A model generated the notes under the pieces. That model made no database searches. It was not told the DNA's origin and was given only the letters and a program-made list of their open reading frames with translations. Below, in pieces: positions 3,708 through 50,600 of a stretch of DNA of 64,000 nucleotides. The stretch lies in NCBI RefSeq assembly GCF_000178115.2, contig NC_014828.1, forward strand, positions 1,953,310-2,017,309. The letters run 5' to 3'. This DNA is from Ethanoligenens harbinense YUAN-3 (GTDB taxonomy: Bacteria > Bacillota > Clostridia > Oscillospirales > Ethanoligenentaceae). A program made the translations under genes and the position numbers. The first letter of the stretch is position 1. Each line of letters starts with the position of its first letter.

Positions 3708-4208
3708 ATGAAAAACAATGTCAACCAGAGTAAACGCATCTACGACAAGACCACCAAGCAGTGGTACGAGATCCCGGAGGACCAGTATCGCGAGTACGAC
3801 CGCTGGCGCACGGCGCTGAGGAAACGCATGCAGTATCGCGGCGAGTGCTTCTGCCCGCGCAGCAAATGGTGGCTGTGCGACGGCAACTGCCTCGACTGCG
3901 AATTCCACAACAACACGACCGTCTCTCTTGACGATCCACTGCCGGACGGCGAAGGAACGCTCGCCGATTACGTTCCGGACGACGCTCCTCTTATTGAAGA
4001 GGTGCTTTCCGAGAAGGCGGAGCTGGACCAGCTCTTCGAGCGTCTGCAGGAGCTCATGCCGGAGGCCAAGCGTATCGGAGAGCTCCGCGAGGAAGGCCTC
4101 TCCGACGAGGCCATCGCCGACACCATCGGCATCAAGCGCACGACGTTCCTGTCCCGCCTGAAGAAGGCCGAGGGGAAGCTGTCTCAGGAGTTCCCCGACT
4201 GGTTCTAA
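3708..4208 (+). CDS. Sigma-factor-like (region 4 HTH) regulatory protein
   Basis: 166 residues. The start ATG at 3708 has GGAGG nine bases upstream; an ORF extending to 3603 lacks a ribosome site. The middle has a Cys cluster (GECFCPRSKWWLCDGNCLDC) that could bind metal. The C-terminus (about residues 100-160) resembles sigma-70 region 4: L-F-E-R-L-Q-E-L-M-P-E-A-K-R-I, then a helix-turn-helix (LSDEAIADTIGIKRTTFLSRLKKAE). Proteins of this architecture open the early region of many clostridial prophages and probably direct phage-gene transcription. Regions 1-2 are absent, so it is not a complete sigma factor. Confidence 0.8.
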   Translation: MKNNVNQSKRIYDKTTKQWYEIPEDQYREYDRWRTALRKRMQYRGECFCPRSKWWLCDGNCLDCEFHNNTTVSLDDPLPDGEGTLADYVPDDAPLIEEVLSEKAELDQLFERLQELMPEAKRIGELREEGLSDEAIADTIGIKRTTFLSRLKKAEGKLSQEFPDWF

Positions 4209-4215
4209 TCATGCG

Positions 4216-4250
4216 GCTCCGGCTGCCCATCGTGGTGGCCGGAGCTTTTT
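4216..4250 (+). terminator. Rho-independent terminator after the sigma-like gene
   Basis: GCTCCGGC (4216-4223) pairs perfectly with GCCGGAGC (4238-4245), followed by five T residues, just after the stop at 4208. Confidence 0.85.
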
Positions 4251-4270
4251 CTGAAATTCTTCTTTTCCCT

Positions 4271-4308
4271 TCGTCAAAACGGCCCGCCCGCCTCCAGTGG
4301 GAAGTGTA
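4271..4308 (+). ncRNA. TTCGTCAAAA/CCTCCAGTGG element, copy 1
   Basis: Shares TTCGTCAAAA (4270-4279) and CCTCCAGTGGGAAGTG (4291-4306) with copies at 8811 and 38761. In this copy I do not see the clean flanking stem that the other two have, so it may be degenerate or fold differently. It lies 40 bases upstream of the small gene at 4349. CCTCC could pair with the downstream GGAGG. Confidence 0.5.
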
Positions 4309-4348
4309 AGGAGCACGAAAACAGATGCTCCGGATTGGAGGAAACGTG

Positions 4349-4555
4349 ATGAACAAGACACGCAACAGAAGTCCTGCGGACACCGAGGTTATCGCCGTTC
4401 TTATCGCGATAAGCCATGTATCCGCAAGACTGGCAAGGAACCTCTCGATCCTTGCCGCAGACAGACAACCATTGGAAGGAGGCAAAGAGAATGTCAAAAA
4501 TGGCAGAAATGGATCAGACCATCAAGGAACTGCGCGATGCCGCCGCTGCTATTAA
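4349..4555 (+). CDS. Small hypothetical phage protein
   Basis: 68 residues from ATG at 4349 (GGAGGAAACGTG ahead of it) to the stop at 4555. It overlaps the next gene (4491) by 65 bases in another frame. The N-terminal half has an amphipathic, Ala/Leu-rich helix (ADTEVIAVLIAISHVSARL), a pattern I associate with a short gene found at this position in related prophages. The C-terminal part, inside the overlap, may be poorly constrained. Function unknown. Confidence 0.5.
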   Translation: MNKTRNRSPADTEVIAVLIAISHVSARLARNLSILAADRQPLEGGKENVKNGRNGSDHQGTARCRRCY

Positions 4556-8803: not shown

Positions 8804-8810
8804 ATCTGTT

Positions 8811-8867
8811 TCGTCAAAAGCGGTCCGTCTCCTCCAGTGGGAAGTAGAGGCGGGCCGCTTTGTTTTG
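8811..8867 (+). ncRNA. TTCGTCAAAA/CCTCCAGTGG element, copy 2, with a 12-bp stem
   Basis: After TTCGTCAAAA, the arm at 8820-8831 (GCGGTCCGTCTC) pairs along all 12 positions, including two G-U pairs, with 8847-8858 (GAGGCGGGCCGC). The loop holds CTCCAGTGGGAAGTA. TTTGTTTTG follows, so it may act as a terminator or attenuator after the polymerase gene. The loop sequence is shared with copies at 4271 and 38761 while the stem sequence differs. Confidence 0.65.
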
Positions 8868-8899
8868 TCCGCCTGAATTTTTGAAAGGAGGATACCGGT

Positions 8900-11574: not shown

Positions 11575-11575
11575 G

Positions 11576-13150: not shown

Positions 13151-14486
13151 CCTTCATTCCTACCAGAAATACTGCGTCTCCTATATCGAGACTCACAACA
13201 CAGCTGCCATCTTCCTTGATTGCGGTCTTGGGAAAACCATCATCACGCTGACTGCTGCCGTCGACCTTCTGTTTGACAGCTTCGAGGTCAGCCGGATTCT
13301 CGTAGTCGCGCCTCTTCGAGTGGCCCGCGACACCTGGCCCGCTGAAATCAGGAAATGGGAGCACCTCTCCGGTCTCACCTACGCCGTTGCAGTCGGAACC
13401 GCACGGGAACGCAAGGCGGCACTCATGCAACAGGCGGATATTACGATCATCAACCGGGAGAACCTTGGATGGCTGATCGACGACTCCGGCATTCCCTTCA
13501 CCTACGACATGGTGGTATTGGACGAGCTCTCCTCCTTCAAGAACCACAAGTCAAAGCGGTTCCGCGCCCTGATGAAGGTCAGGCCCAAGGTGAAGCGGAT
13601 CATCGGCCTCACCGGCACGCCATCAAGCAACGGATTGATGGATCTGTGGGCGGAGTTCAAGGTGCTGGACAAGGGAGAACGTCTCGGACGCTTCATCACC
13701 CAGTACCGGACGGCCTACTTCATGCCCGACAAGCGCAACGGCGAGATCATCTACTCCTACAAGCCGCTGCCGTATGCAGAGGACGCGATCTACCGGAAAA
13801 TCTCGGATATCACGATTTCCATGAAGTCGACCGATCATCTGAAGATGCCGGAGCTCATCTCCACGCAGTACGAGGTGCAGCTGTCCGCCGAGGAGCGCAA
13901 ACGGTACGAGGAGCTGAAGAACGATCTGGTGCTGGAACTTCACGGCGACGAGATCACCGCAGCGAACGCGGCAACGCTTACCGGGAAGCTCTCTCAGCTT
14001 GCAAACGGCGCGATCTACTCCGACGACGGGAAGATCATCGAATTCCATGACCGGAAGCTCGACGCCTTGGAGGACATCATCGAGGCCGCGAACGGGAAGC
14101 CGCTGCTTGTCGCCTACTGGTTCCGGCACGATCTGGAGAGAATCCGCAGACGGTTCGACGTCCGGGAGATCAAGTCGTCGCAGGACATCGATGACTGGAA
14201 TGCGGGCAATATTCCTGTAGCAGTCATCCACCCGGCCTCCGCCGGTCACGGGCTCAACCTGCAGTCCGGCGGATCGACGCTTGTCTGGTTCGGCCTCACG
14301 TGGTCATTGGAGCTCTACCAGCAGACGAACGCAAGGCTCTGGCGGCAAGGCCAGAAAAGCCGGACCGTCGTCATCCAGCACATCGTCACTGCGAGCACCA
14401 TTGACGGGCAGATCCTCAACGCCTTGAAACACAAGGACAAGACGCAGTCAGCGCTTATCGCTGCGGTGAAGGCGGTGATGCGATGA
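13134..14486 (+). CDS. SNF2-like DEAD/DEAH helicase
   Basis: 450 residues, the compact phage form of the SNF2 family. Motif Q/I: LHSYQKYCV and DCGLGKTIITL (Walker A). Motif Ia: ILVVAPLRVARDTWP. Motif II: MVVLDELSSFKNHKSKR (variant DEL-S in place of DEAH). Motif III: IIGLTGTPSSNGLMDLWAE. C-terminal helicase half with LVAYWFRHDLERI, HPASAGHGLNLQSGG and a final Q-T-N-A-R-L-W-R-Q-G-Q. It probably remodels replication or recombination intermediates with VRR-NUC. The start codon lies inside the HNH gene. Confidence 0.95.
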   Translation: MQKLSDLHSYQKYCVSYIETHNTAAIFLDCGLGKTIITLTAAVDLLFDSFEVSRILVVAPLRVARDTWPAEIRKWEHLSGLTYAVAVGTARERKAALMQQADITIINRENLGWLIDDSGIPFTYDMVVLDELSSFKNHKSKRFRALMKVRPKVKRIIGLTGTPSSNGLMDLWAEFKVLDKGERLGRFITQYRTAYFMPDKRNGEIIYSYKPLPYAEDAIYRKISDITISMKSTDHLKMPELISTQYEVQLSAEERKRYEELKNDLVLELHGDEITAANAATLTGKLSQLANGAIYSDDGKIIEFHDRKLDALEDIIEAANGKPLLVAYWFRHDLERIRRRFDVREIKSSQDIDDWNAGNIPVAVIHPASAGHGLNLQSGGSTLVWFGLTWSLELYQQTNARLWRQGQKSRTVVIQHIVTASTIDGQILNALKHKDKTQSALIAAVKAVMR

Positions 14487-14704
14487 ACGACCCCTACGAG
14501 AATCTCGCCAACGCCGTCATCCTGCAGGCTGTCCGCGACTACCGGACAGCACTGAAGGCCCTGCGCATGAACCCGCGGAACAAGGCCGCGCAAACGGAGA
14601 AGGAATCCGTCGAACGGTTCTTCCGGTCCCAGTGGTATCAGGCGCTGACGACGGTTGACGGCGAGATGCTGATAAAAAAGCTCAACGAGGAGGTGATGAG
14701 ATGA
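14483..14704 (+). CDS. Small hypothetical phage protein
   Basis: 73 residues, starting with an ATGA overlap on the helicase stop and ending with the same type of overlap on the next gene, so it is certainly translated in this operon. Largely helical, with a basic, aromatic centre (KESVERFFRSQWYQAL). Proteins of this size and composition are common between the helicase and DUF1492 genes of clostridial prophages. No function is known to me. Confidence 0.75.
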   Translation: MNDPYENLANAVILQAVRDYRTALKALRMNPRNKAAQTEKESVERFFRSQWYQALTTVDGEMLIKKLNEEVMR

Positions 14705-15114
14705 CTCCGAAGCAATATCTGAATCAGGCCAAGCACCTGGATGCGCTGATCCACTCGCGGCTCCGGGAGATCGACTACTGGAGGGAAATGTCCACCAGCG
14801 TCAGCGGCATGCGCTACGACGGCATGCCGAGGAACCCGAACACGCCAAGCGACGCGCACTTCGTCACCTGCCTCCACAAGATCGACGAGATACAGGCCGA
14901 CGTGGAGAAGAAGGTGGCGCAGCTCATTACGCTGCGGGACGAGATCAACGCGCGTATCGACCTGCTGGCTGATCCCGAGGAGCAGCTGGTTCTCCGCTAC
15001 CGGTACATCGACAACTGCACATGGGAGGAGATCGCCAGCATGCTGAACGTCAGCCTCCGCACCGTACACCGCATCCACGGATCGGCACTTCAGAACTTCA
15101 CAATGCCGGATTAG
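14701..15114 (+). CDS. DUF1492 (ArpU/RinA-like) late transcription regulator
   Basis: 137 residues. N-terminal half helical (MTPKQYLNQAKHLDALI) with coiled-coil character, then D-P-E-E-Q-L-V-L-R-Y-R-Y-I followed by a sigma-region-4-like HTH (WEEIASMLNVSLRTVHRIHG). DUF1492 and related ArpU/RinA proteins activate the packaging and structural genes of Gram-positive phages. It ends the early operon, five bases before four TGGCAC repeats that are its likely binding site. Confidence 0.9.
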   Translation: MTPKQYLNQAKHLDALIHSRLREIDYWREMSTSVSGMRYDGMPRNPNTPSDAHFVTCLHKIDEIQADVEKKVAQLITLRDEINARIDLLADPEEQLVLRYRYIDNCTWEEIASMLNVSLRTVHRIHGSALQNFTMPD

Positions 15115-15118
15115 AAAA

Positions 15119-15156
15119 GTTGGCACGGTTTGGCACACTTTGGCACAGAATGGCAG
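15119..15156 (+). promoter_or_regulatory. Four TGGCAC repeats at exact 10-bp spacing (late operator)
   Basis: TGGCAC begins at 15121, 15131 and 15141, with TGGCAG at 15151. Each is preceded by T or A, giving a fixed 10-bp helical period. The array follows the DUF1492 regulator and precedes the HNH-terminase region, so it is a good candidate activator site for late transcription. Confidence 0.7.
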
Positions 15157-15206
15157 ACGCCTTCTGTGTTATCCTTACAATAGCGAAAACCATAAGAAGA
15201 ACCACG

Positions 15207-15240
15207 AAGCCTTGCGAGCACCGCGCCCGCAGGGCTTTTC
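15207..15240 (+). terminator. Rho-independent terminator or attenuator
   Basis: AAGCCTTGCG (15207-15216) pairs with CGCAGGGCTT (15228-15237) over 10 bp with one G-U pair, followed by TTTTC. It stands between the TGGCAC array and the HNH gene and might be read through in late expression. Confidence 0.7.
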
Positions 15241-15268
15241 TTATGCCCGAAGGGAGGCGGCAAACGCT

Positions 15269-15622
15269 ATGCCAATGAAACCGAAACGGCCCTGCCGCTA
15301 TCAGGGCTGCCCGAACCTGTGCGAGGACGGCGAACAGTACTGCCCGGAGCACAAGGCTCTGATGGAGAAGCACTACGAGAAGTTCACGCGCGGCTACTCG
15401 ACCGGCAAACGATACGGACGCTCCTGGCAGCGCATCCGCACACGCTACGTCCACAAGCATCCTCTCTGCGAGATGTGCCTGAAGCAAGGACGTTACGTTG
15501 CGGTCGAGGAAGTCCACCACATTGTTCCCCTGTCGGAAGGCGGCACGAACGACGAGAGCAACCTCATGAGCCTGTGCAGGTCGTGTCACGAGAAGATACA
15601 TAAAGAGCGCGGCGACCGGTAG
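15269..15622 (+). CDS. HNH endonuclease next to the terminase genes
   Basis: 117 residues, starting at ATG 15269 after GGAGGCGG; an in-frame extension to 15140 has no ribosome site. N-terminal CRYQGCPNLC...YCPEH zinc ligands, a basic linker (GKRYGRSWQRIR), then the HNH core: P-L-C-E-M-C-L-K-Q-G, V-E-E-V-H-H-I-V-P-L, N-E-S-N-L-M-S-L-C-R-S-C-H (about residues 62-112). HNH proteins at this position work with terminase to cut cos ends in many cos-type phages. Probably a packaging component rather than a homing enzyme. Confidence 0.93.
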   Translation: MPMKPKRPCRYQGCPNLCEDGEQYCPEHKALMEKHYEKFTRGYSTGKRYGRSWQRIRTRYVHKHPLCEMCLKQGRYVAVEEVHHIVPLSEGGTNDESNLMSLCRSCHEKIHKERGDR

Positions 15623-15758
15623 GGGCGGTTGAAATCTCTACGAGGCGGCGCTGCGGAAAACGGCGCGGGGCTTTCTGTACGAAAAAAGCGAAATCAAACG
15701 GGTAATAACCCGGCTCCTTATCTATTACGCGCGTACATGCGAGAAAGGCGGTGACGAA
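15623..15758. other. Candidate cos region between HNH and small terminase genes
   Basis: 135 bases without a gene. They begin with a GC-rich block (GGGGCGGTTGAAATCTCTAC, then GCGGCGCTGCGG and GGCGCGGGG), followed by an AT-rich half with TATCTATTACGCGCG. In many 3'-cos siphophages of Gram-positive hosts the cohesive end lies between the HNH and terS genes. The exact nick positions cannot be told from sequence. Confidence 0.45.
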
Positions 15759-16310
15759 ATGCCTACAAAATCGAATAACACTGGCGGTCGCGGCGGCAGA
15801 CGTCCCGGCGCTGGCCGGAAGAAAACCGCCGTCAAGGAGAAATACGAAAACGGGAATCCGGGCGGACGAAAGCTCGAAGTGCTCGACATCCCAGACACCG
15901 AGGGCGAGGACATGCCGGAACCGCACGAGTTCCTCTCGGCTCGGCAGCATGACGGCTCCACTCTGGAGGCCGCCGACATCTACCGCGAGACTTGGGAATG
16001 GCTCGACAAGCTCGGCGTCGCAAAAGCCGTATCACCGCAGCTGCTGGAACGGTATGCGATGTGCTCCGCGAGATGGATTCAGTGCGAGGAAATGACGACC
16101 AAGCTCGGATATTTGAGCAAGCATCCGACGACCGGAAAGCCGATCCCGTCGCCGTTCATCAATATCGGCATCAACTACATGAATCAGGCGAACCGCCTGT
16201 GGGACGAGATCTTCCAGATCGTGAAGGAGAACTGCTCCACCGAGTATGGCGGCGCGAATCCGCAGGACGACGTGATGGAGAGACTGCTTCGTGCCAGAAA
16301 GGGAATGTAA
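15759..16310 (+). CDS. terS: Phage terminase small subunit (P27 family)
   Basis: 183 residues. N-terminal low-complexity basic segment rich in Gly and Arg (GRGGRRPGAGRKK), typical of P27-family small terminases, then a helical core: E-A-A-D-I-Y-R-E-T-W-E-W-L, SPQLLERYAMCSARWIQCEE, and PSPFINIGINYMNQANRLWD. It recognises the packaging site and regulates the large subunit. The gene is separated from the large subunit (20427) by about 4 kb holding a methylase, an interrupted HNH gene and five small genes. Confidence 0.92.
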   Translation: MPTKSNNTGGRGGRRPGAGRKKTAVKEKYENGNPGGRKLEVLDIPDTEGEDMPEPHEFLSARQHDGSTLEAADIYRETWEWLDKLGVAKAVSPQLLERYAMCSARWIQCEEMTTKLGYLSKHPTTGKPIPSPFINIGINYMNQANRLWDEIFQIVKENCSTEYGGANPQDDVMERLLRARKGM

Positions 16311-17573
16311 ATGAACACACAAAGACTTGAACAGGTACCGATTGACAATCTGGTGCCATATGCCCGGAACGCCCGGACACATAGTAAAGAACAGATCGCG
16401 CAGCTCCGCTCCTCCCTCCGGGAGTTCGGATTCGTAAGCCCTGCGGTCATCGATCAGGATTACAACATCCTCGTCGGCCACGGACGGATTGCTGCTGCAC
16501 GAGAGGAAGGGTACAAGACCGTCCCTTGCGTATTCGCCGAGGATCTGACCGACGCGCAGAAACGCGCCTACATACTCGCCGACAACCAGCTCGCGCTGAA
16601 CGCCGGATGGGACGAGGAAATGCTGTCCGTCGAATTAGCTGACCTGCAAGAGAACGCGTTCGACCTCTCCCTGCTCGGTTTCGACGACAAGGAGCTGGAG
16701 AAGCTGCTCGGCAGCGATACAGAGGCTGAGGAGGACGATTTCGATGTTGATGCGGAACTGGAAAAGCCGTGCTTCTCAAAACCCGGCGACCTCTGGCATA
16801 TCGGGAAGCATACGGTCGTCTGCGGAGACTCCACCGACCCGGAAACATTCGCGAAGCTGCTCGGCGACAAGAAGGTCAACCTCGTCTGCACCGACGCGCC
16901 GTACTTCGTCAACCTGGAGAATGCGTCCGGGAAGATTGCCAACGACGACCTCAAGGGAACGCAGGCTTATGACTTCCTGATGAAATGTTTCTCTAATTTC
17001 AAGAACGCTATGGCGGACGACGCTTCGATTTACGAGTTCTATGCGACCATGCAGGCGCGCGTGTTCTACGACGCCTTCGAGGACGCCGGATTCAAGGTCG
17101 GAGCCGGACTCATCTGGAAGAAGCCGCGCGCTCCGCTCATGCGCACCGACTGGAAGTTCAACATGGAGCCGATCATCTTCGGCTGGCGCAAGGACGGCAA
17201 GCACAAATGGTACGGCGACCAGAAGCAGAAAGCCGTATTCGAATTCGACGGCGTGAAGAACTCCAAAGAGGACGGCTTCGGACACCCTTCCAGCAAGCCC
17301 GTGCCGCTCATCGCCTACCTCATCGAACAGAGCACCGCGACAAACGGACTCGTGCTTGACGGGTTCCTCGGCTCCGCCTCAACGCTCATCGCCTGCGACC
17401 AGATCGGACGCATATGCTATGGCGTGGAGCTTGAACCCAAATATGTAGATGTAGCCGTCGTCCGTTACCTGCATTCACATAATGAAGATTCAAGCGATGT
17501 GAAGCTCGTCCGTGACGGGAAGGAATACACATACGAACAGGCGCTTGAAATGATGGAGGCTGTTGATGAGTAA
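16311..17573 (+). CDS. ParB-N/DNA methyltransferase fusion with altered catalytic motifs
   Basis: 420 residues. A ParB/sulfiredoxin-like domain (residues about 5-130; VPIDNLVPYARNARTHS, VGHGRIAAAREEGY) is fused to a beta-class amino-methyltransferase. The catalytic motif IV reads T-D-A-P-Y at residues 194-198, where the family has DPPY. The SAM motif reads G-F-L-G-S-A-S-T (351-358) in place of F-G-G-S-G-S-T. The target-recognition stretch (WKFNMEPIIFGWRKDGKHKW) and HPSSKPVPL are conserved. It normally protects phage DNA against restriction. Both substitutions make reduced or changed activity possible. Confidence 0.92.
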   Translation: MNTQRLEQVPIDNLVPYARNARTHSKEQIAQLRSSLREFGFVSPAVIDQDYNILVGHGRIAAAREEGYKTVPCVFAEDLTDAQKRAYILADNQLALNAGWDEEMLSVELADLQENAFDLSLLGFDDKELEKLLGSDTEAEEDDFDVDAELEKPCFSKPGDLWHIGKHTVVCGDSTDPETFAKLLGDKKVNLVCTDAPYFVNLENASGKIANDDLKGTQAYDFLMKCFSNFKNAMADDASIYEFYATMQARVFYDAFEDAGFKVGAGLIWKKPRAPLMRTDWKFNMEPIIFGWRKDGKHKWYGDQKQKAVFEFDGVKNSKEDGFGHPSSKPVPLIAYLIEQSTATNGLVLDGFLGSASTLIACDQIGRICYGVELEPKYVDVAVVRYLHSHNEDSSDVKLVRDGKEYTYEQALEMMEAVDE

Positions 17574-18177
17574 TGTGAAATACAACTTCTCGGATGATGG
17601 AACTACAGCTTATGGCGAATTGCCCAGCGGCGAAGTCTTTGTCCTCGACGCAGACATGCTTGCAGCAATCAATGGCATCAATTTCTATATAGGAAGCAAA
17701 GGACCACACTCTTCCGGTTTCTACGTAATTGACTGCAACGGACGCGCTCTCCACGATTACTTGTTCGAACATAGAGATGGATTTGAAATTGATCACATCA
17801 ATCTTGATACGCTCGATAATCGCAGATGCAACATCCGATATTGCACCCACCAACAGAATCAGATGAATCAACCGCTCCAGAAAAACAACACATCTGGAGT
17901 AAGCGGAGTCAGCTATTATCCTTCGCGGCACTAGTTCCGTGCAAGGATCAAAGTCAATCAGCATGAGATTCATCTGGGCTATTACGACACCTTCGAAGAT
18001 GCCGTCATGGCAAGGAATGTCGGAATGCTCTGTATGTTCGGGCAATATGGCCGTTATAACGATGTCGGGAGAACCCCAGAATGGATTAAAAACAATGTTG
18101 CAGATAGATGTGCGCGCTTTGAGGAGTTATCTCAGAGTAGCGCATTTTTTGATTTCTGGAGAGTCGACGAAGTCTGA
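17566..18177 (+). pseudogene. HNH homing endonuclease with AP2-like domain, interrupted by an in-frame TAG
   Basis: Begins at ATG 17566 (GGAGG site, overlapping the methylase stop). The HNH core is present (DGFEIDHINLDTLDNRRCNIR and C-T-H-Q-Q-N-Q-M-N). An AP2-type DNA-binding domain starts at GVSGVSYYPSRH. A TAG at 17932-17934 stops the frame exactly inside this domain. The same frame continues without further stops: FRARIKVNQHEIHLGYYDTF and onward to TGA at 18175. One substitution therefore separates it from a 203-residue intact enzyme. Recent inactivation, suppression, or a sequencing error are the options. Confidence 0.85.
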
Positions 18178-18252
18178 TTCCTTTGTGTACTAAGCACAGT
18201 TTCATGCCCTGATAATCGGCTTATTTTCTACCGGATAAATCTCGAAGATTCG

Positions 18253-18298
18253 CTTGCTATTACAGGCCTTCAGAGTGATGTATATACATGCCGAAAGG
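18253..18298 (+). promoter_or_regulatory. 46-bp conserved element, copy a
   Basis: Fits CTTGCTAT-N10-CAGAGTGAT-N11-CCGAAAGG with exactly the same spacing as copies at 19524 and 39394. It ends 42 bases before the gene at 18341. TTGCTA followed after 17 bases by GATGTA could be a promoter with an unusual -10. Confidence 0.7.
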
Positions 18299-18340
18299 CA
18301 CATGGCCTTCGGACAGACGCATACCAAGGAGGTTAACACA

Positions 18341-19072
18341 ATGCGAATCAACTACAACGTAACCGGAGCAAAGAGAAAAGAACTGGTGAAGGTCATCTCC
18401 GACACCACCGGAGCCAGGGCGGAATACAAATTCATGCCGACCTGCAACTACGAGATCGGCTTCTTCACCGTCACCAAGGACGGCGCGCTCGAGTTCGACG
18501 ACATGGCGGACAGCGAGGAGGTCGAGAAGGTTCTCGAAGCCATCGCAGCCGCAGGATTCGAGCCCGAGCCGCAGGAACCCACGGAACCGGAAGCCGCAGC
18601 CGAGTCGGAGGAAGACGCCGAGGAAGCGCCGGAAACCGAGGAGATGGGCCTGACAGTTGAGCTTCCGCTCGACAAGGTCGCGGTCGGAACGCTGACCAAC
18701 ATCCTCGAAGCCAAGGGAACGCTCATCAAGAAGGCGCTCGGCATAGACGACCTGCGGTTTGAAATCAAAGAGGGCCGCATCGCATTCCCATGGTTTCCGG
18801 AACTGCCGGAGCCGGACGAGGTCAAAGCCTACACCGAGTTCATTTCCCTGCTCTGCAAGCTCTCGAAGGAACTGAAGCGGGCAAGCTCCACGGAAACGCC
18901 GGTGACGAATGAGAAGTACGCATTCCGCTGCTTCCTGCTCCGCCTGGGATTCATCGGCAGCGAATACAAGAAGGAACGCAAGATTCTCCTGCAGAACCTC
19001 TCCGGCAACTCAAGCTGGAAAAACGGCGCTCCTGAAAAGAATACCAAGAACAGCGAGGAGGTGCAGGCATGA
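18341..19072 (+). CDS. Phage protein of the type annotated virulence-related protein
   Basis: 243 residues; the ATG at 18341 follows CAAGGAGG. N-terminal domain (residues about 1-75) MRINYNVTGAKRKELVKVIS with a DTTGARAEYKFMPTCNYEIG core; acidic Glu/Pro/Ala linker (about 78-110); C-terminal domain with LEAKGTLIKKALGIDDLRFE and IAFPWFPELPEPDEV, ending in a basic segment (GSEYKKERKILLQNL). This architecture recurs in clostridial prophages and conjugative elements under the label virulence-related, without proven function. A 46-bp conserved element stands upstream. Confidence 0.8.
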   Translation: MRINYNVTGAKRKELVKVISDTTGARAEYKFMPTCNYEIGFFTVTKDGALEFDDMADSEEVEKVLEAIAAAGFEPEPQEPTEPEAAAESEEDAEEAPETEEMGLTVELPLDKVAVGTLTNILEAKGTLIKKALGIDDLRFEIKEGRIAFPWFPELPEPDEVKAYTEFISLLCKLSKELKRASSTETPVTNEKYAFRCFLLRLGFIGSEYKKERKILLQNLSGNSSWKNGAPEKNTKNSEEVQA

Positions 19073-19293
19073 GGCTGATCAGACCAGAGGAGCTTGAACG
19101 GCTTCGCAAGACTTACCCGAACGGCACCCGCGTGGAGCTTATCAAAATGGATGATATCCAGGCTCCGCCCATCGGCACGAAAGGCACTGTTTACGGCATT
19201 GATGATACCGGAAGCCTGCTCGTCCACTGGGACAACGGCGGCGGACTGAACGTCATCTACGGCGAGGACATTGTGAGAAAGGCTGGTAACTGA
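19069..19293 (+). CDS. DUF4314 domain protein
   Basis: 74 residues; ATGA overlap with the preceding gene. The DUF4314 signature is plain: L-R-K-T-Y-P-N-G-T-R-V-E-L, then PPIGTKGTVYGIDDTGSLLVHWDNG and I-Y-G-E-D. It looks like a small SH3-like beta barrel. These proteins occur throughout clostridial phages and plasmids; role unknown. Confidence 0.88.
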   Translation: MRLIRPEELERLRKTYPNGTRVELIKMDDIQAPPIGTKGTVYGIDDTGSLLVHWDNGGGLNVIYGEDIVRKAGN

Positions 19294-19294
19294 T

Positions 19295-19480
19295 ATGGAT
19301 GAGAAAGTCAGAGAACAAATTATGGCCATCCGGGATACCGGCAAGGTCAACATGCTCTCAGTCATCGAGGTTCAGCGGCTGGCGTTCGATTCCGGATATT
19401 ACGAGCTGGTCCTCTACATTGAAGAACACCGCCGCGAATACTGGCACTTCATCATGACCGGCGAGACGGAAGAATCCTGA
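19295..19480 (+). CDS. DUF5049-type small protein
   Basis: 61 residues, starting one base after the previous stop. The pattern VREQIMAIRDTGKVNMLSV with Q-R-L-A-F-D-S-G-Y-Y-E-L-V matches DUF5049-type proteins that travel with DUF4314 genes. All helical, acidic. Function unknown. Confidence 0.8.
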   Translation: MDEKVREQIMAIRDTGKVNMLSVIEVQRLAFDSGYYELVLYIEEHRREYWHFIMTGETEES

Positions 19481-19523
19481 TTTTTAAGACACAGAAAGTT
19501 ATCAATTTATCTTGCAGAATTGA

Positions 19524-19569
19524 CTTGCTATATGTGCCAAACAGAGTGATATATGTACACACCGAAAGG
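19524..19569 (+). promoter_or_regulatory. 46-bp conserved element, copy b
   Basis: CTTGCTAT (19524-19531), CAGAGTGAT (19542-19550) and CCGAAAGG (19562-19569) at the same spacing as the other two copies. TTGACT overlaps the start of the element, and TTGCTA-17-GATATA could be -35 and -10. It lies 31 bases ahead of the gene at 19601. Confidence 0.75.
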
Positions 19570-19600
19570 GAAAACCACAGAAAATCAGGAGGAAAGCACG

Positions 19601-20077
19601 ATGACAGAGAACAGATTTTTCGAGGAAATGAGAGCCACAGCAATCGCCTACAACGAGGCGCAGGCCATCCGGAAGGAACAGCGCGACGCGATGATCGAGG
19701 CTGACGACTGGGACGGCGTGAAAGCCTTTGACGAGCGGGAAAAGAAAGAGTTCCCTTACCCTTTCACCTCCGGCGAGAACAAGGCGCTGGTACAGTACGA
19801 CAGATCCTTAAGGAACGGCGCAGACGCATTCGAGGTCGAGGACCTTCCCTGGGATTACGAGCTTGCAGACTTTGTCGAAACGCTCCGCAAGGCTGACATC
19901 GACAGGATCACGGTAACCGACCAGAGCACCGGCCTGATGGACGGCATCTACGGACTTACCGCCCTCGGCTGCAAAATGAGCGGACTCAAGACCGTCACCA
20001 GAGCCAACGACCACCGCTTCGGCAGCAAGGAGCCGGAACGCAAAAACGGCATCGAGTTCATCATCGAGGAGGCTTAA
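19601..20077 (+). CDS. Hypothetical phage protein (DUF7698-like)
   Basis: 158 residues from ATG 19601 with CAGGAGG upstream. N-terminal helix (MTENRFFEEMRATAIAYNEA), middle with D-W-D-G-V-K-A-F, then an alpha/beta C-terminal part (DYELADFVETLRKADIDRIT, TGLMDGIYGLTALGC) resembling a small Rossmann-like domain. It appears in clostridial mobile elements alongside DUF4314 genes. Biological role not known. Preceded by the 46-bp element. Confidence 0.75.
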   Translation: MTENRFFEEMRATAIAYNEAQAIRKEQRDAMIEADDWDGVKAFDEREKKEFPYPFTSGENKALVQYDRSLRNGADAFEVEDLPWDYELADFVETLRKADIDRITVTDQSTGLMDGIYGLTALGCKMSGLKTVTRANDHRFGSKEPERKNGIEFIIEEA

Positions 20078-37739: not shown

Positions 37740-38690
37740 ATGGCTATCAAGGGAATAGACGTATCGGTCTGGCAGGGAAACATCGACTTTGGCAAGGTCA
37801 AAGTGTCAGGCATCAATTTTGTGATTATCCGCGCCGGATACGGCAACGGGAACAAGGACAAATGGTTCGATGAGAACTACCGGAAAGCAAAAGCAGCCGG
37901 GCTCCACATCGGCGCATACTGGTATTCATACGCCACATCCGCTGACGGTGCGAAGCAGGAAGCGCAGTCCTGCGCCAAGGTGCTCTCAGGCAAGCAGCTT
38001 GATTACCCGGTCTACTTCGACATCGAGGAGAAGTCCCAGCTTTCGCGCGGGAAGGATTTCTGCTCATCGCTCATCACGGCGTTCTGCACCGAGCTGGAGA
38101 ATCATGGCTACTACGCAGGCTTTTATACTTCACTTTCCAGCCTGAACTCTGTGGTATCGGATGCCGTAAAGAAGCGCTTCACCGTCTGGGTGGCGCAGTG
38201 GTCGGGCAAATGCTCGTACTCCGGCGCTTACGGCGTCTGGCAGTATTCGTCCAAAGGCAAGGTCAGCGGCATCGGCGGGAACGTCGACATGGACTACTCC
38301 TACATCGACTTTCCAACCACGATCAGAAACGGCGGATTCAACGGCTACGGCAAAGGCGCTGCATCCACCAGCACGACAACCGTGAAGAAGTCCGTTGACG
38401 AGATTGCTTCAGAGGTCATTGCCGGGAAATGGGGCAACGGCTCCGACCGCAAGAACCGTCTGACGGCCGCTGGGTTTGACTACAACGCCGTGCAGGCAAA
38501 GGTCAACGAGAAACTCGGCGCTTCCCAGAAGAAATCGGCCGCCACCTACTACACGGTTCAGCGCGGAGACACACTTTCCGGCATCGCCAAGAAGTACGGC
38601 ACGACCGTATCCGCAATCCAGAAGTTGAACAGTACGCTCATCAAGAACGTGAATCTCATCCAGGTCGGATGGCGGATTCGCGTGAAATAG
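37740..38690 (+). CDS. GH25 endolysin with Cpl-7 and LysM wall-binding modules
   Basis: 316 residues. GH25 lysozyme catalytic domain: [46 protein letters not shown] and Y-F-D-I-E-E with acidic catalytic pair. A Cpl-7 (CW_7) repeat follows ([34 protein letters not shown]), then a LysM module ([18 protein letters not shown]) to the C-terminus. Cleaves peptidoglycan glycan chains. Multi-module wall binding is typical of Clostridia phages. Confidence 0.97.
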
Positions 38691-38705
38691 CTGCATCACA
38701 TCTCA

Positions 38706-38750
38706 GGCCCACTGGCTATTCCTTATCGGAATTGTCGGTGGGCCTTTTTT
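38706..38750 (+). terminator. Terminator after the endolysin
   Basis: GGCCCAC (38706-38712) pairs with GTGGGCC (38738-38744) around an inner ATTCC/GGAAT stem, followed by six T. Confidence 0.88.
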
Positions 38751-38760
38751 CGTTTCTGCT

Positions 38761-38807
38761 TCGTCAAAACAGGCCTCCAGCCTCCAGTGGAAAGTGACTG
38801 GAGGTTT
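38761..38807 (+). ncRNA. TTCGTCAAAA/CCTCCAGTGG element, copy 3, hiding a ribosome site
   Basis: TTCGTCAAAA, then the arm 38771-38780 (AGGCCTCCAG) pairing with 38798-38807 (CTGGAGGTTT). The loop carries CCTCCAGTGGAAAGTGA. The 3' arm is the GGAGG of the gene at 38812, so folding would block its translation. CCTCCAG is present twice in tandem, giving two alternative pairings. Confidence 0.65.
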
Positions 38808-38811
38808 TCTC

Positions 38812-39234
38812 ATGAATAAAGAACAGAAGCAGCAGATCCGCAAGCTGCGCGGTGACGGCCACGGGTACGCTGCGATTGCCAATGCGCTGGGACTCACGAA
38901 GAATCAGGTATCAGCCTTTTGCCGCAGGAACAACCTCACCGGAAAGATTGCCGACACAGGCGACGAGAATACGCCGGATGGCTCCTACTGCCAGTACTGC
39001 GGAAAGCCAATAAAACAAATTCCCGGTCGAAAGGAAGTCCGGTTCTGCTCGGACGCCTGCCGACTCAGCTGGTGGAACGCCCACCCGGAACAGATCAACC
39101 GGAAAGCCGTCTACACATTCAACTGCGCCCACTGCGGAAAACGGTTCTCGGCCTATGGAAACCGGCACCGTAAGTACTGCTCGCACGCCTGCTATATCGC
39201 AGACCGTTTCAAAGGCGGTGACGGCCATGAGTGA
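38812..39234 (+). CDS. HTH plus zinc-finger DNA-binding protein
   Basis: 140 residues, ATG 38812. N-terminal HTH (KLRGDGHGYAAIANALGLTK then QVSAFCRRNNL), two Cys-type fingers: CQYCGKPI...R-F-C-S-D-A-C and CAHCGKRF...K-Y-C-S-H-A-C. Such proteins stand before the recombinase in clostridial prophages and may regulate excision or bind att DNA. Exact role unknown. Its translation probably depends on the preceding hairpin. Confidence 0.82.
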   Translation: MNKEQKQQIRKLRGDGHGYAAIANALGLTKNQVSAFCRRNNLTGKIADTGDENTPDGSYCQYCGKPIKQIPGRKEVRFCSDACRLSWWNAHPEQINRKAVYTFNCAHCGKRFSAYGNRHRKYCSHACYIADRFKGGDGHE

Positions 39235-39391
39235 TGAGCAGTTCGAGCGGGAGAAACTTTACCAGGCGAGCATGGAAATGTTCAAAAGGATGCTGGATCA
39301 GGGCCTTATCACCGAGGATGAATACGCGGTCATAGACACCAAAATGAAGGAGAAATACAGCCCGATAATCGGCACATTATTATCCCCGTAA
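39227..39391 (+). CDS. Small SHOCT-domain protein
   Basis: 54 residues; ATG 39227 overlaps the preceding gene's end. Helical with the SHOCT-type sequence MFKRMLDQGLITEDEYAVID and K-M-K-E-K-Y. SHOCT proteins accompany recombinases or phage-lysogeny genes; role unproven. Confidence 0.8.
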   Translation: MSDEQFEREKLYQASMEMFKRMLDQGLITEDEYAVIDTKMKEKYSPIIGTLLSP

Positions 39392-39448: not shown

Positions 39449-41242
39449 ATGCCGAAAATCACGAAAATTGAGCCTAAAATCAAGGCTCTACCACAGCGGA
39501 AGAAGGTGGCGGCATACGCGCGTGTGTCGATGGAGACCGAGCGCCTGCACCATTCCCTCTCCGCACAGGTCAGCTACTACTCGGAGCTGATCCAGAAGAA
39601 TCCGGAATGGCAGTATGCAGGTGTCTACGCGGACGAAGGCATCACCGGTACAAGCACCATGAAACGGCCTGAGTTCCAGCGTATGCTCGCTGACTGCGAA
39701 GCCGGGAAGATAGACATCATCCTCACCAAGAGCATCAGCAGGTTCGCGCGGAACACGGTCGACCTGCTGGAGACCGTCCGGCATCTCAAGGAGCTGGGCA
39801 TTGAGGTGCGGTTCGAAAAGGAGCACATAAACTCGCTTTCCGGTGACGGCGAGGTCATGCTCACCTTGCTCGCCTCATTTGCACAGTCTGAAACCGAAAG
39901 CATCTCCAACAATGTGAAGTGGGGAATCCGCAAAAGGATGCAGGCCGGACTGCCTTATGCAAACGGTCACATGAACGTCTACGGGTACCGCTGGGAAAGT
40001 GACGAGATGGTCATCGTCCCGGAGGAGGCCGCCATCGTACGCCGCATCTACCAGAACTTCCTTGACGGGAAATCCCGGCAGGAAACCGAGAAGGAATTCG
40101 CCGCCGAAGGCATCAAGACGCGTGCCGGAGCGCCGTGGGTGGATTCCAATCTGAAGGTGATCCTCACGAACGTTACCTACACAGGCAACATGCTCTACCA
40201 AAAGGAATACATCGCTGATCCGATCACGAAGAAGGTCAAGAAGAACCGCGGCGAGCTGCCGCAATACTATGTGGAGAACACGCATCCGGCCATCATCAGC
40301 AAGGAAACATTCGACTACGTGCAGGCCGAAATGGCGCGGCGCAGGGAGCTTGGCTGCTTTGGCAACAAGGCGCTCACCCTGAACTGCTTCTCCACGAAAA
40401 TCAAATGCGGACAATGCGGCAGAAGTTTCGTCCGCTCCACACGGAGGAACCGAGCAAAGATGAGCAGGCTCGGAGAGAAATACACCTTCTGGGCCTGCAC
40501 CTCACACAAGAAAACAAACTGCTCGTCCTGCAGCAGCGGAACGATCCGCGAAAGCGTCCTCAAAGAGGAATGCGCCAAGGTGCTCGGCATCCCGGAATTT
40601 GACGAGGACATCTTCTCTGAGCGTGTCGAACGGATTACGGTTCCTGAGTCCGGGACGATGATCTTCGAATTCACGGACGGCACCACGCTTGAACACCACT
40701 GGTACCGGAATGCGAAAAAGGAATCGTGGACTGAGGAGAATCGGAAGCGTGCATCTCAGTACCGCAGACGGCACCCGGTCACCCGTGACGATATCACCTG
40801 CTTCACCACGAAGATCCGCTGCGAGGAATGCGGCTGCAACTACCGCAAGCAGACATGCGTCATGGCCGACGGCCACCAGAACGCCTATTGGAAGTGCGCC
40901 GACAAGAAAAACCATCCCGGCAAAAGCCTGCGCGAGGATCACCTGAAGGAAATCATCAACGAGGTCCTCGGGCTCGACGAATTCGACGAGCAGGTCTTCC
41001 TCGAACGGATAGACCACATCAGCGTCCGGAACCTGACACACCTGACCTTCCACTTCACCGACGGCAGCACAGCCGAACGAGACTACGAATACTCGAAGGA
41101 AGGCGTCCCGTGGACAGATGAGCGCCGGGAAAAACAGACTGAGGCTATCAGGGATAGCTTCACGCCGGAGCGCAGGAAGAAAATCAGCGAAAACATGAAG
41201 AGAATAAGGAGTGAGAAACATTGGAGCAGCAAAAGAAAGTAA
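39449..41242 (+). CDS. Large serine recombinase 1
   Basis: 597 residues, start ATG 39449 with AAAGGAG. N-terminal resolvase catalytic domain with Ser27 in AAYARVS, then I-L-T-K-S-I-S-R-F-A-R-N-T-V-D-L-L and ASFAQSETESISNNVKWGIR. Central recombinase domain to about residue 290. Two C-terminal zinc ribbons (CGQCGRSF...; CEECGCNY...C) and a basic tail. Catalyses site-specific integration or excision with the second recombinase. Confidence 0.96.
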   Translation: MPKITKIEPKIKALPQRKKVAAYARVSMETERLHHSLSAQVSYYSELIQKNPEWQYAGVYADEGITGTSTMKRPEFQRMLADCEAGKIDIILTKSISRFARNTVDLLETVRHLKELGIEVRFEKEHINSLSGDGEVMLTLLASFAQSETESISNNVKWGIRKRMQAGLPYANGHMNVYGYRWESDEMVIVPEEAAIVRRIYQNFLDGKSRQETEKEFAAEGIKTRAGAPWVDSNLKVILTNVTYTGNMLYQKEYIADPITKKVKKNRGELPQYYVENTHPAIISKETFDYVQAEMARRRELGCFGNKALTLNCFSTKIKCGQCGRSFVRSTRRNRAKMSRLGEKYTFWACTSHKKTNCSSCSSGTIRESVLKEECAKVLGIPEFDEDIFSERVERITVPESGTMIFEFTDGTTLEHHWYRNAKKESWTEENRKRASQYRRRHPVTRDDITCFTTKIRCEECGCNYRKQTCVMADGHQNAYWKCADKKNHPGKSLREDHLKEIINEVLGLDEFDEQVFLERIDHISVRNLTHLTFHFTDGSTAERDYEYSKEGVPWTDERREKQTEAIRDSFTPERRKKISENMKRIRSEKHWSSKRK

Positions 41243-42804
41243 CCACTATCCCGGCGTCCCGGACGCGCTTTTCCTCCACTCCTATCACAGAGAAAAAGAA
41301 ACGCAAGGTCGCCGGATACGCCCGCGTCTCAACAGACCATGACGACCAGTTCACGAGCTACGAGGCGCAGATCGATTATTACACCAACTACATCAAGGGC
41401 CGCGACGACTGGGAATTCGTGAACGTCTACACGGACGAAGGAATCAGCGGAACCGGCATCAAGAAGAGAATTGGATTCCAGAACATGATCGAGGACGCGC
41501 TCGCTGGGAAGATCGACCTGATCGTCACCAAGAGCGTCAGCCGCTTCGCCCGGAACACCGTCGACAGCCTGACAACCATCCGGAAACTCAAGGAAAACGG
41601 CGTCGAATGCTACTTTGAAAAAGAGAACATCTGGACCTTCGACGGAAAAGGTGAATTGCTGATCACCATCATGTCGAGCCTTGCGCAGGAGGAATCCCGT
41701 AGCATTTCCGAGAACTGCACCTGGGGACAACGTAAGCGATTCGCAGACGGCAAGGTGACGGTTCCGTTCCACCGGTTTCTCGGCTACGACCGCGGTCCGA
41801 ATGGCGAGCTCATCGTCAACCCAGAGGAGGCAGAAACCGTCCGCCGCATCTACCGGCTCTTCCTGCAGGGCCTGACCTACAACGGCATCGCCAAGCAGCT
41901 TACCAATGACGGCATCAAGACACCCGGCGGCAAGGATCACTGGAGCATCAGTACCGTCAAGTCCATCCTCGGAAACGAGAAATACAAGGGCGACGCCCTG
42001 CTGCAGAAATCCTACACAGTCGACTACCTCACGAAAAAGACGAAGGTCAACGAGGGCGAAATCCCGCAGTACTACGTGGAAGGCGACCATGAAGCGATCA
42101 TCGCACCGGAGACCTTCGACCTGGTCCAGCGCGAGATGAAGAAGCGCGGCAACGGCATCATGTACCACAGCGGCGTACACGTCTTCTCCAGCAAAATCCG
42201 CTGCGGGCAGTGCGGCTCCTTCTACGGCTCCAAGGTCTGGCATTCCAACAGCAAATATCGGAAAACTATCTGGCGCTGTAACCATAAATACGATGGCTGC
42301 AAGAAATGCACCACGCCAGCCATAGACGACAGCGAAGTGAAAACCGCGTTCCTCTCGGCGGTGAACAAGCTGCTTGAAACAAAAGCCGAGGTCATCGCCA
42401 ACGGCAAAGAGATGCTACCGTTCCTCTTCAAGACCGACGAACTGGAAGCCGAGCGCGACCGGCTCCTGGATGAGGCACAGATGGTGGCGGACGCAGTGCA
42501 GCAAAACATCGTGGAGAACGCCCGGACGGCTCTCGACCAGAACGCCTATAAGAAGCACTACGACGACCTTGCCGACCGGTACGATAAGCTCAAGACCCGC
42601 ATCGAAGAGCTCACCGCAAAAATCGAAGAAACTCAATCCCGGAAAGCCGGGTACGAGGACTTCCTCAAGGCATTCGAAAACACGCCCGAGAGCCTGACGG
42701 AATTCTCCCTCGATGCCTTCAACGGACTCGTCGATCACCTGACGATCTACGCCAATGACGACATCCGCTTCACCTTCCGCAATGGACAGGAAATCAAAGC
42801 CTAA
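41221..42804 (+). CDS. Large serine recombinase 2
   Basis: 527 residues from TTG 41221, overlapping recombinase 1 by 22 bases. Catalytic Ser37 in AGYARVS, I-V-T-K-S-V-S-R-F-A-R-N-T-V-D-S-L, A-Q-E-E-S-R-S-I-S-E-N. One zinc ribbon (CGQCGSFYG...W-R-C-N-H) and a coiled coil (residues about 405-475). Tandem serine recombinases in one operon suggest the two proteins act together or on different sites of the element. Confidence 0.96.
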   Translation: MEQQKKVTTIPASRTRFSSTPITEKKKRKVAGYARVSTDHDDQFTSYEAQIDYYTNYIKGRDDWEFVNVYTDEGISGTGIKKRIGFQNMIEDALAGKIDLIVTKSVSRFARNTVDSLTTIRKLKENGVECYFEKENIWTFDGKGELLITIMSSLAQEESRSISENCTWGQRKRFADGKVTVPFHRFLGYDRGPNGELIVNPEEAETVRRIYRLFLQGLTYNGIAKQLTNDGIKTPGGKDHWSISTVKSILGNEKYKGDALLQKSYTVDYLTKKTKVNEGEIPQYYVEGDHEAIIAPETFDLVQREMKKRGNGIMYHSGVHVFSSKIRCGQCGSFYGSKVWHSNSKYRKTIWRCNHKYDGCKKCTTPAIDDSEVKTAFLSAVNKLLETKAEVIANGKEMLPFLFKTDELEAERDRLLDEAQMVADAVQQNIVENARTALDQNAYKKHYDDLADRYDKLKTRIEELTAKIEETQSRKAGYEDFLKAFENTPESLTEFSLDAFNGLVDHLTIYANDDIRFTFRNGQEIKA

Positions 42805-47342: not shown

Positions 47343-47418
47343 TGGTGGAGATGAGGAGGATCGAACTCCTGACCTTACGGATGCGAACCGTACGCTCTCC
47401 CAGCTGAGCTACACCCCC
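47343..47418 (-). tRNA. tRNA-Ala (anticodon CGC)
   Basis: Read on the minus strand, the 76 nucleotides fold into a complete cloverleaf: acceptor GGGGGTG/CATCTCC (with G-U pairs), D arm GCTCAGCTGGGAGAGC, anticodon stem TACGG/CCGTA with loop TTCGCAT (anticodon CGC), T arm AGGAG-TTCGATC-CTCCT, and encoded CCA. A partial copy of its anticodon arm is found 200 bases away. Confidence 0.95.
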
Positions 47419-47584
47419 ATATGAAATTGTGAGGAACTGTGCTATATTTTCAAACCACCCTGGGGGGATGGCGAAAACCCAAATAAAATCTGTGACTTCG
47501 AAACCAAGGGGAATTTGTATGTGGTGAGACAGGTTACCGTGGAAGTTTCGCTCAAGTCCGCTTTGTGGTTTTACAACCACCTCT

Positions 47585-47614
47585 TGACCTTACGGATGCG
47601 AACCGTACGCTCTC
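47585..47614 (-). repeat. Duplicated anticodon arm of tRNA-Ala, possible att remnant
   Basis: Thirty bases identical to 47370-47399 (tRNA nucleotides 20-49), with near identity for a few more bases on one side. The copy lacks both acceptor ends. Tyrosine integrases often use an anticodon-arm core, so this could be an attachment-site remnant. No integrase is nearby. Confidence 0.6.
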
Positions 47615-49380: not shown

Positions 49381-50600
49381 ATGGAAGGAGCAAACCGGAT
49401 GGATATCCGAAGCGACCGGCAAAAAGGACTGAGCTACACAGAGATAGCGCGCAAGTACAACATTGACCCGAGGACGGCGAAGAAATACGCCGAGAGCGAG
49501 GCGCGACCGGTATACAGCCTGAGCGCAACGAAGCCGTCGAAGCTGGACCCCTACAAGGAGCAGATAACGGTATGGCTGGAGGAAGCGCCGTACTCAGCGG
49601 AGCGGATACTGGAGAAAATTCAGGAGCAGGGCTTCGAGGGTGGGCACAGCATCGTGCGGGAATACGTGCGAAACAAGAAGGAACAGTTGGACGAGAAAGC
49701 AACGGTGCGGTTTGAAACGATGCCGGGACTTCAAGGGCAGATGGACTGGGCGTTTTTTGAGGATCACACCGTGCCGGAGGATGGGAAGCTGAAAAAGCTG
49801 TACTGTTTTCTGTTCATTTTGGGGTACTCGCGGACACGGTACATAGAGTTTGTGACCGACATGAGTACCAACACTCTGATCCGCTGCCATGCCAACGCGT
49901 TCCGGTATTTAGGCGGTTACCCGGAGGAAATTCTGTATGACAACATGAAGCAGGTCGTCATCAAACGGCTGCTGAAGCAGGAAGACAGTACCCTCAACCG
50001 GCAGTTTGAGGATTTCGCCGGATTCTATGGGTTCAAGCCATGTGCTGTGCCGGCCATACCGAGGCCAGACAAAGGGTAAAATAGAGCGCACGGTACAGTT
50101 CGTACGGGATAATTTCATGATTGGCATCAAGTACTCTTCACTTGACGACCTCAATGGCCAGGCCCTCGCATGGTGTAATAAGGTCAATGGGAAAGTCCAC
50201 GCCACAACAAATGAAATTCCCTTCGAGAGACTAAAAAAGAGGGCCTTAACCCTCTTAAACGTGAATATATCATCGACAAAATCAATCTGCGCCGGGTACA
50301 AAAAGACTGCCTCATCTCGTACGGCGGTAATCAGTATTCCGTGCCATCGGAATACGCCGGCGAAGATGTGGCAGTCGTAGCATTGGACAACGTGCTTGCT
50401 GTCTACTATGAAGGAAAGCAAATTGCCCTGCACCGAATATCCTACCAGAAAAAGACATGGTCGTCAATGCCCATCATTATCGCAGGCTGACCGTCAAGCA
50501 ATCCTTTGATACAGAAAACACCCTGCTGGACGGCGACAGTGTCATCGACCTTCCTATCCAACAACACGATTTGAACCGGTATGACGAGGTGCTGCTATGA
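49381..50600 (+). pseudogene. istA: IS21 transposase IstA with three frameshifts
   Basis: The first 220 residues are good IstA: an HTH (LSYTEIARKYNIDPRTAKKY), then the integrase core (GLQGQMDWAFFEDHTV, the D-x-N-type YDNMKQVVIKR). An extra base near 50042 changes frame before the catalytic glutamate region (CRPYRGQTKGKIERTV). A-run length changes at 50233-50238 (six A, seven expected) and 50455-50459 (five A, six expected) shift it again; read across, the tail ends QHDLNRYDEVLL. Either decayed or affected by homopolymer sequencing error. Confidence 0.85.

Follow-up and report, generated by a model that had tools for sequence, protein, structure and literature searches.

A repeated element at three operons of an Ethanoligenens harbinense prophage: a candidate phage-specific transcription site with a predicted Shine-Dalgarno-masking arm

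The element and its three copies

We analysed a 64,000-nucleotide stretch of Ethanoligenens harbinense YUAN-3 (NC_014828.1, positions 1,953,310 to 2,017,309; "the window" below), whose relevant features are collected in Table 1. The recombinase operon of the prophage in this window opens with the gene of P0001. A reading made earlier from the sequence alone had taken its product for an HTH plus zinc-finger protein encoded just before the recombinases, and this was borne out: the HTH and zinc-knuckle protein P0001 is followed by a SHOCT_2 protein and two recombinases.

The Shine-Dalgarno (SD) sequence of the P0001 gene lies in a predicted hairpin, the core of which is formed by eight perfect Watson-Crick pairs between CCTCCAGT (38781-38788) and ACTGGAGG (38797-38804) around the loop GGAAAGTG (38789-38796), extended by G38780.T38805 and A38779-T38806. 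The GGAGG at 38800-38804, 7 nt 5' of ATG 38812, is part of the 3' arm, as the sequence-only reading had it, with the arm itself at 38797-38806 and not one base further at 38798-38807. The stability of the hairpin is ordinary (z -1.17, a stability matched by 27 of 200 shuffles; z -1.49 and 14 of 200 in a second run), and 98 perfect hairpins of at least 8 bp are listed for the window if nested entries and both strands are counted. No Rfam match at the gathering score was found in the window or in 17 relative loci; further scans gave only weak matches at chance level. A metabolite riboswitch or another known RNA family was dropped as an explanation of the c3 leader, being without Rfam support.

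The hairpin by itself is unexceptional; the three-copy repeat to which it belongs is not a product of chance. Two further copies of the c3 element surfaced when the window was compared with itself, at 4270-4306 and 8810-8846, and the earlier description of the c3 element as a third copy is therefore correct. The element consists of an 8-9 nt box, TTCGTCAAAA, followed after 12-13 nt by CTCCAGTGGRAAGTG. When aligned, the copies read TTCGTCAAAA, an 11-nt gap and CCTCCAGTGGRAAGTR, starting at 4270 (c1), 8810 (c2) and 38760 (c3), all of them intergenic and on the + strand. With up to three mismatches allowed, GCCTCCAGTGGRAAGTG has 3 matches, compared to a shuffle mean of 0.22, and none of 100 shuffles reached 3. 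In the 3,008,576-base host genome, the bipartite pattern occurs exactly three times, always in the window and on one strand; the reversed pattern, used as a control, is absent. A covariance model run on the host genome returned only c3 and c1 at E < 0.01, because it does not catch c2. The exact pattern (the box of the window plus CCAGTGG) has no match in 97 other genomes of the order; in IMG/VR it occurs in 29 stretches, none of them with the CTCCAGTGGGAAGTG context, and these were judged to be chance matches.

The operons headed by the three copies are the replication genes (c1), a gene after the DNA polymerase that is presumably DUF4406-like (c2) and the HTH-Zn/SHOCT/recombinase genes (c3). 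At c2, the conserved loop is enclosed by a terminator-like stem (8818-8831/8847-8860).

Elsewhere in the window, a tRNA gene (47346-47418, - strand) has a 34-nt near-copy (97%) of part of its sequence 215 nt away, at 47581-47614, as left by an integration event near the prophage. Downstream of the prophage lies an IS21-type transposase-like reading frame (49381-50079), which we take to belong to the IS21 family.

Table 1. Positions of the features discussed, in window coordinates
Feature	Position	Strand	Basis or remark
P0005, sigma-region-4-like protein, proposed box reader	3708..4208	+	conserved Cys47, 49, 57, 61, 64
Terminator before c1	4215..4246	+	scan
Site c1	4270..4341	+	box 4270-4279, CTCC 4292-4295, inner hairpin, GGAGG 4337-4341, before ATG 4349
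Small gene behind c1 (68 aa), opening the replication genes	4349..4555	+	
Site c2	8810..8891	+	box 8810-8819, GGAGG 8887-8891, before TTG 8900
First gene after c2, 140 aa	8900..9322	+	NatCom_35866 orthologue annotated as nucleoside 2-deoxyribosyltransferase
Intrinsic terminator	38707..38752	+	after the lysin gene, directly 5' of c3; hairpin -29.0 kcal/mol, T run about 15 nt before the box
c3 box TTCGTCAAAA, -35-like candidate recognition site	38760..38769	+	pattern scans, box/helix association
First CCTCCAG copy, alternative partner in the earlier reading	38774..38780	+	sequence; not conserved
SD-masking hairpin	38779..38806	+	arms 38779-38788 and 38797-38806, loop 38789-38796; predicted fold
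GGAGG, SD of ATG 38812	38800..38804	+	sequence
P0001, HTH and zinc-knuckle protein, 140 aa, phrog_2308 (unknown function)	38812..39234	+	
SHOCT_2 protein	39227..39391	+	same kind as the first c3 gene in 8 other phages
Large serine recombinase 1	39449..41242	+	
Large serine recombinase 2	41221..42804	+	

Leaders of related phages and predicted masking of the ribosome site

A tblastn search with P0001 yielded 142 phage records, the closest of which are labelled Ca. Heliusvirales, and the same element is present in leaders of P0001 relatives from both IMG/VR and genomes. A covariance model built from six leaders gave 31 matches in 86 sources (several near-duplicates and the training sequences included) and 10 matches in 80 genome loci, all on the + strand. 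Of the 31, 26 end on the start codon of the P0001 relative, and of the 10, 8 end on a start codon; the other ends number 5 of 31 (one only 2 nt short) and 2 of 10. At E <= 0.01, a second model matched 29 of the 80 viral loci and 12 of the 80 genome loci of P0001 relatives, leaving 51 and 68 without a match. Hence, many relatives either have no element or one that has diverged too far. This model missed c2 in several phages and produced chance matches in coding sequence near E 0.1-1. In divergent phages the distance from box to arm is nearly constant (L118 and L173 had no anchored arm). Where the leader is tandem, as in L044, L055 and W01, the second copy carries a different box.

The sequence-only reading had proposed that tandem CCTCCAG segments offer the SD two alternative partners in a translational switch. 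Both copies are found in the window and in two relatives (L040, L041), whereas three close relatives (L042, L043 and L120) are missing the first copy and keep the second. The two-state tandem design is therefore unsupported, the comparison having largely refuted it, and we regard it as highly improbable. What survives of the translational switch is the masking of the SD, predicted both here and in relatives. The accompanying suggestion that the element could gate excision is plausible, because the masked operon contains both large serine recombinases.

In predicted folds of full c3 leaders, the SD had a median unpaired probability of 0.00, with values below 0.2 in 13 of 14 leaders and in all 22 further c3 leaders. 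The median was 0.01 at c1 (below 0.2 in 10 of 14) and 0.26 at c2 (below 0.2 in 1 of 11, since 11 of the 14 c2 sites were included). When the leaders were cut 33 nt after the start of the box, the medians recovered to 0.48-0.65, or about 0.5. These predictions suggest that a helix sequesters the SD in upstream-initiated RNA, in the manner of certain T4 leaders discussed below. The masking hairpin is retained at c3 both in leaders of P0001 and in leaders of other genes.

In an alignment of 26 distinct rows, which was itself fitted to the structure, 94.4% of the cells pair and 7 of 9 pairs vary on both sides. Covariation scored 0.263 there, compared to 0.172 ± 0.019 in shuffles (0 of 500 as high); a sliding partner for the hairpin gave 37-50% pairing in the same alignment. 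We also used a structure-free anchored test, in which 48 rows were merged to 31 and L105, L109 and the c1 leader of W04 were left out on account of misplaced anchors. Here, 132 of 186 cells were paired against 121.5 in shuffles (2 of 5000), an excess carried by one column pair. In short leaders this pair reached 12 of 12 against 6.8 (4 of 5000), and in leaders with an inner hairpin or insert the difference was not significant (58 of 90 against 55.2).

It is conceivable that the element is a DNA binding site only and that the CTCC/GGAGG complementarity is incidental, since the conserved CTCC could base-pair with nearly every SD. Such a reading is consistent with the retention of CTCC at c2 despite the weak masking there, with the loss of the complement to the SD at distant c1 sites and with a hairpin in the window that is not unusually stable. 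Against it, the SD was less accessible than in the leader's own mononucleotide-shuffled controls in 61 of 61 leaders, and a T precedes GGAG in 22 of 27 c1/c3 leaders compared to 15 of 51 SD-like sites in the prophage. We consider incidental complementarity unlikely.

Several leaders deserve separate mention. In L038, L068 and L069, the first of two tandem elements retains a TGTCC/GGACA stem though no start codon follows, and this stem may have a role beyond SD masking. In c3 leaders of the TTCGGCC class (L037, L039, L054, L056, L058), the loop pairs with the region of the start codon instead of the SD (GTCATTG with CAATGAC; GGTCAAGTGAG with CTCACTATGACC). Pairing of the box with the start codon was dropped as a general feature, being present in some folds only. 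In six further leaders (L064, L070, L071, L073, L129, L132), the P0001 relative directly follows the DNA polymerase and no box was seen; these have a terminator-like hairpin before the gene and share the loop CTCCAC, TTTT, CAACG and AAGGGG.

A box shared within phages and associated with the P0005 helix

All three sites are present in 14 phages: the one in the window, W01 (NatCom_35866), G098, G109, G112, G103 and eight more (G117, G119, G120, G126, G128, G129, G130, G132). In these phages, c1 precedes a conserved gene of 68-69 aa that heads the replication genes, c2 follows the DNA polymerase gene and precedes the next one, and the recombinase genes begin behind c3. The first c3 gene of the eight later phages encodes, by resemblance, a SHOCT-type small protein and not P0001, and therefore the site is a property of the operon rather than of P0001. 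In 12 of the 14 phages, the conserved loop of c2 is surrounded by a hairpin of <= -19 kcal/mol, in most of them with a T-rich stretch behind it. An att site or a mobile repeat was rejected because the copies occupy orthologous places in the 14 phages.

The box is shared within a phage. Its identity is 0.958 between sites of the same phage and 0.720 when one site is compared across phages, a difference reached in 0 of 20000 permutations; for 7 lineages the values are 0.947 and 0.681 (0 of 20000); with 4 lineages the sharing was equalled in 42 of 20000 permutations. An initial four-lineage test gave 35 of 5000 for the box and 8 of 5000 for the loop, whereas the downstream part was not shared (500 of 5000); the spacer also passed (8 of 5000), though at low identities of 0.50 versus 0.48. 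A common trans-acting factor is the simplest reading of these sequence comparisons.

P0001 was rejected as the reader of the box, as near-identical P0001 proteins stand behind different boxes (L050 and L052; L044 and L045). The box type tracks the recognition helix of P0005, the gene of which lies immediately 5' of c1, and not the HTH of P0001. Among P0005 relatives with a c1 site on the same piece of DNA, gathered from two scans, the helix RTT[FY][LR]SR goes with the box CGTCAAA, [PK]Q[KR]TFAD[QE] with CGCTCAAA, PQRTFAHQ with GGCTCAA, RNT[FY]VYR with CGGCCAAA, GRKT[FY][AV]YR with TTTCC[ACG]AAA or TTCCAAA, PRKTFTDR with CCGCCAAA, and TMFYR with TTTGAAA, the expressions for the boxes having been drawn up after inspection of the sequences. 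For 42 representatives of 81 sequences (L262, L320, L282 and L283, which had no usable box or were fragments, were left out), box and helix were correlated at 0.71 in a partial Mantel test that controlled for the N-terminal rest of P0005 (0 of 5000); box and N-terminal rest, with the helix controlled for, gave 0.13 (67 of 5000). The association is confined largely to the box (0.74, compared to -0.03 at 9 nt before it and 0.19 at 9 nt after it), but it climbs again to 0.48 at CAGTGG. Linkage may add to this association because c1 adjoins the P0005 gene; however, c2 and c3 carry the same box from about 4.5 and 34 kb away.

The nature of P0005 was approached by family models and by structure. The protein matches TIGR02937 at E 1.9e-6, below the cut-off of 42.9 bits; phrog_351 (sigma factor) matches 23 of the 35 members of its family; and its best PDB sequence matches are sigma factors (6pfj, E 0.0027). 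In a Foldseek search with the AlphaFold model (pLDDT 81.8, pTM 0.38), nearly all matches were sigma subunits, none of them at 1e-3; about 157 columns were aligned to sigma-A with a TM of about 0.42. VIA-align, whose rows span residues 72-166 only, superposed residues 91-166 with sigma region 4. Among its matches were the -35-binding domain of SigD, with Z 6.6 over 62 residues of a 63-residue chain at 2.5 Å, and sigma-E region 4 on its -35 DNA (2h27), with Z 6.1, both Z values being middling. In sequence and in predicted structure, P0005 thus appears to resemble sigma region 4, all matches being moderate. Separately, the SD of the P0005 gene itself (window 3655-3710) is predicted to be masked by a CCTCCGGTTCG/CGAACGGAGG hairpin with GTGCG/CGCAC flanks (-26.3 kcal/mol), and there is no box at this place.

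Terminators, the proposed circuit and known systems

A terminator-like hairpin (<= -12 kcal/mol plus a T run) immediately precedes 42 of the 44 c1 sites and 31 of the 35 c3 sites, compared to 0 and 0 in shuffles; c2 overlaps a terminator rather than following one. Between terminator and SD, the genes behind c1 and c3 need a new transcription start. No conserved sequence other than the element lies in that interval, which is why we read it as a transcription site. A scan for sigma-70-type promoters found none around c3 (38600-38900) and five matches in 1-20000, not above shuffles and all away from c1 and c2. The 17 nt from GTCAAA to AGTGGR are a promoter-like spacing; AGTGGR is not a known -10, and the stretch 3' of the box is G+C-rich and resembles no known -10 element. 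Pairing of the upstream terminator with the loop as an antiterminator was seen by eye in the window only and dropped, and a general antitermination element would fit c2 only.

We propose that the element is a phage-specific transcription site read by P0005 and that the 5' RNA arm of the element masks the SD in read-through RNA, and we put the chances of this explanation at about even. P0005, through its C-terminus resembling the -35-binding domain, would recognise the box as DNA at all three sites and let RNA polymerase start just 3' of it, probably between the CTCC arm and the SD; in short leaders, this confines the proposed start to about 10-14 nt. RNA coming from upstream would be halted by the terminator, which overlaps c2 and immediately precedes c1 and c3. 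Any read-through RNA would carry the CTCC arm, which would fold onto GGAGG and cause poor translation, and RNA initiated at the site, without the CTCC arm, would be translated. The direction of regulation and the biological role that we infer are that expression of the replication and recombinase genes would depend on P0005 and be shielded from transcription nearby.

The masking hairpin could also serve as an RNA operator, with a phage protein, perhaps P0005, binding the transcribed box and loop and opening or stabilising the hairpin, so that control is translational and acts on read-through transcripts. The retention of the c3 hairpin in front of different genes, the pair changes on both sides, the conserved loop and the precedent of Com acting on mom in phage Mu, described in PMC6483171, all fit this. 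However, a strong terminator stands just before nearly every c1 and c3, and c2 is masked weakly; furthermore, the box lies outside the hairpin at a nearly fixed distance from the arm, and its sequence changes with a sigma-4-like helix, whose fold is ordinarily a DNA-binding one. We judge an RNA operator to be a less probable explanation, to be taken seriously at perhaps half the weight of the promoter-like reading.

Another alternative is that P0005 is an activator of the Ltr or MotA kind, or a repressor, acting on host polymerase with a host sigma factor, the SD mask being secondary insulation. The similarity demonstrated for P0005 is limited to region 4, and small late regulators of Gram-positive phages act at such sites, according to PMC13123087. 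Nevertheless, c3 lacks a host-type -10, as do the surroundings of c1 and c2, and we find this alternative rather improbable.

The proposed transcription site may be part of something wider. Tentatively, and with more doubt than confidence, we suggest that phages of the Heliusvirales type encode their own divergent sigma-type factor (phrog_13787) and that its -35-like site has diversified into at least 7 recognition types across lineages while the three-operon circuit was kept, each site lying in RNA that terminates or masks read-through. Mutually orthogonal promoter sets for replication and excision, and a natural code between region 4 and the -35 site, would be the result. If this is true, each phage couples the expression of its replication and recombinase genes through a single small protein with a recognition sequence of its own. 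A function would then be suggested for phrog_13787, and its sites could be predicted by a rule open to testing; some 40 natural combinations of a sigma-like helix with its box would be available for work on -35 recognition, and orthogonal promoters for use in anaerobic gut Clostridia could follow.

According to the Heliusviridae paper (PMC9226167), the lineage of the closest phages is widespread in the human gut and has DUF2800, DUF2815, DNA polymerase, VRR-NUC and SNF2 helicase among its core genes. Genes of this kind stand behind c1 and c2. In the same paper, the word "promoter" occurs 0 times and "sigma" once, as the name of a supplier. A literature search that covered few subscription papers, on Heliusvirales/Heliusviridae, DUF2800 RNA, prophage sigma or region 4 and phage-encoded sigma factors, gave no description of the circuit.

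What emerges beyond the hairpin is a phage regulon whose recognition box is lineage-specific and whose candidate reader is sigma-4-like. Phage-encoded sigma factors are exemplified by T4 gp55 and SPO1 gp28. P0005 is like them in its similarity to the sigma family, which concerns region 4, and in having a common set of phage-specific promoter-like sites. The Ltr regulators have a sigma-4-like HTH, and no Ltr model was named among the family-model matches of P0005. According to PMC13123087, the Ltr regulators of Gram-positive phages (RinA, ArpU, LtrC) are likewise small, phage-encoded and active at phage promoters. Unlike them, P0005 has conserved cysteines and is encoded before the replication genes, whereas an Ltr regulator would be expected before the terminase genes, and its sites head replication and recombinase genes. 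The Mu Com/mom system is similar in that a masked start region 5' of a phage gene is combined with a phage-encoded trans-factor; it differs in that Com (PMC6483171) is an RNA-binding zinc-finger protein, whereas here the box varies with a sigma-4-like helix.

A likeness in layout is offered by phage T4. PMC3014915 describes long transcripts of gene e in which the ribosome site is masked and transcripts from late promoters, located in the 5' strand of the hairpin, in which it is unmasked; in the leaders of e, soc, 49 and I-TevI alike, the SD lies in a hairpin of upstream-initiated RNA and the promoter in the region of the 5' strand. The T4 leaders use the late promoters TATAAATA, whereas the prophage has a G+C-rich bipartite site with a phage-specific box, a putative promoter, at three operons. 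With this difference, the T4 precedent appears to fit the proposed arrangement in detail.
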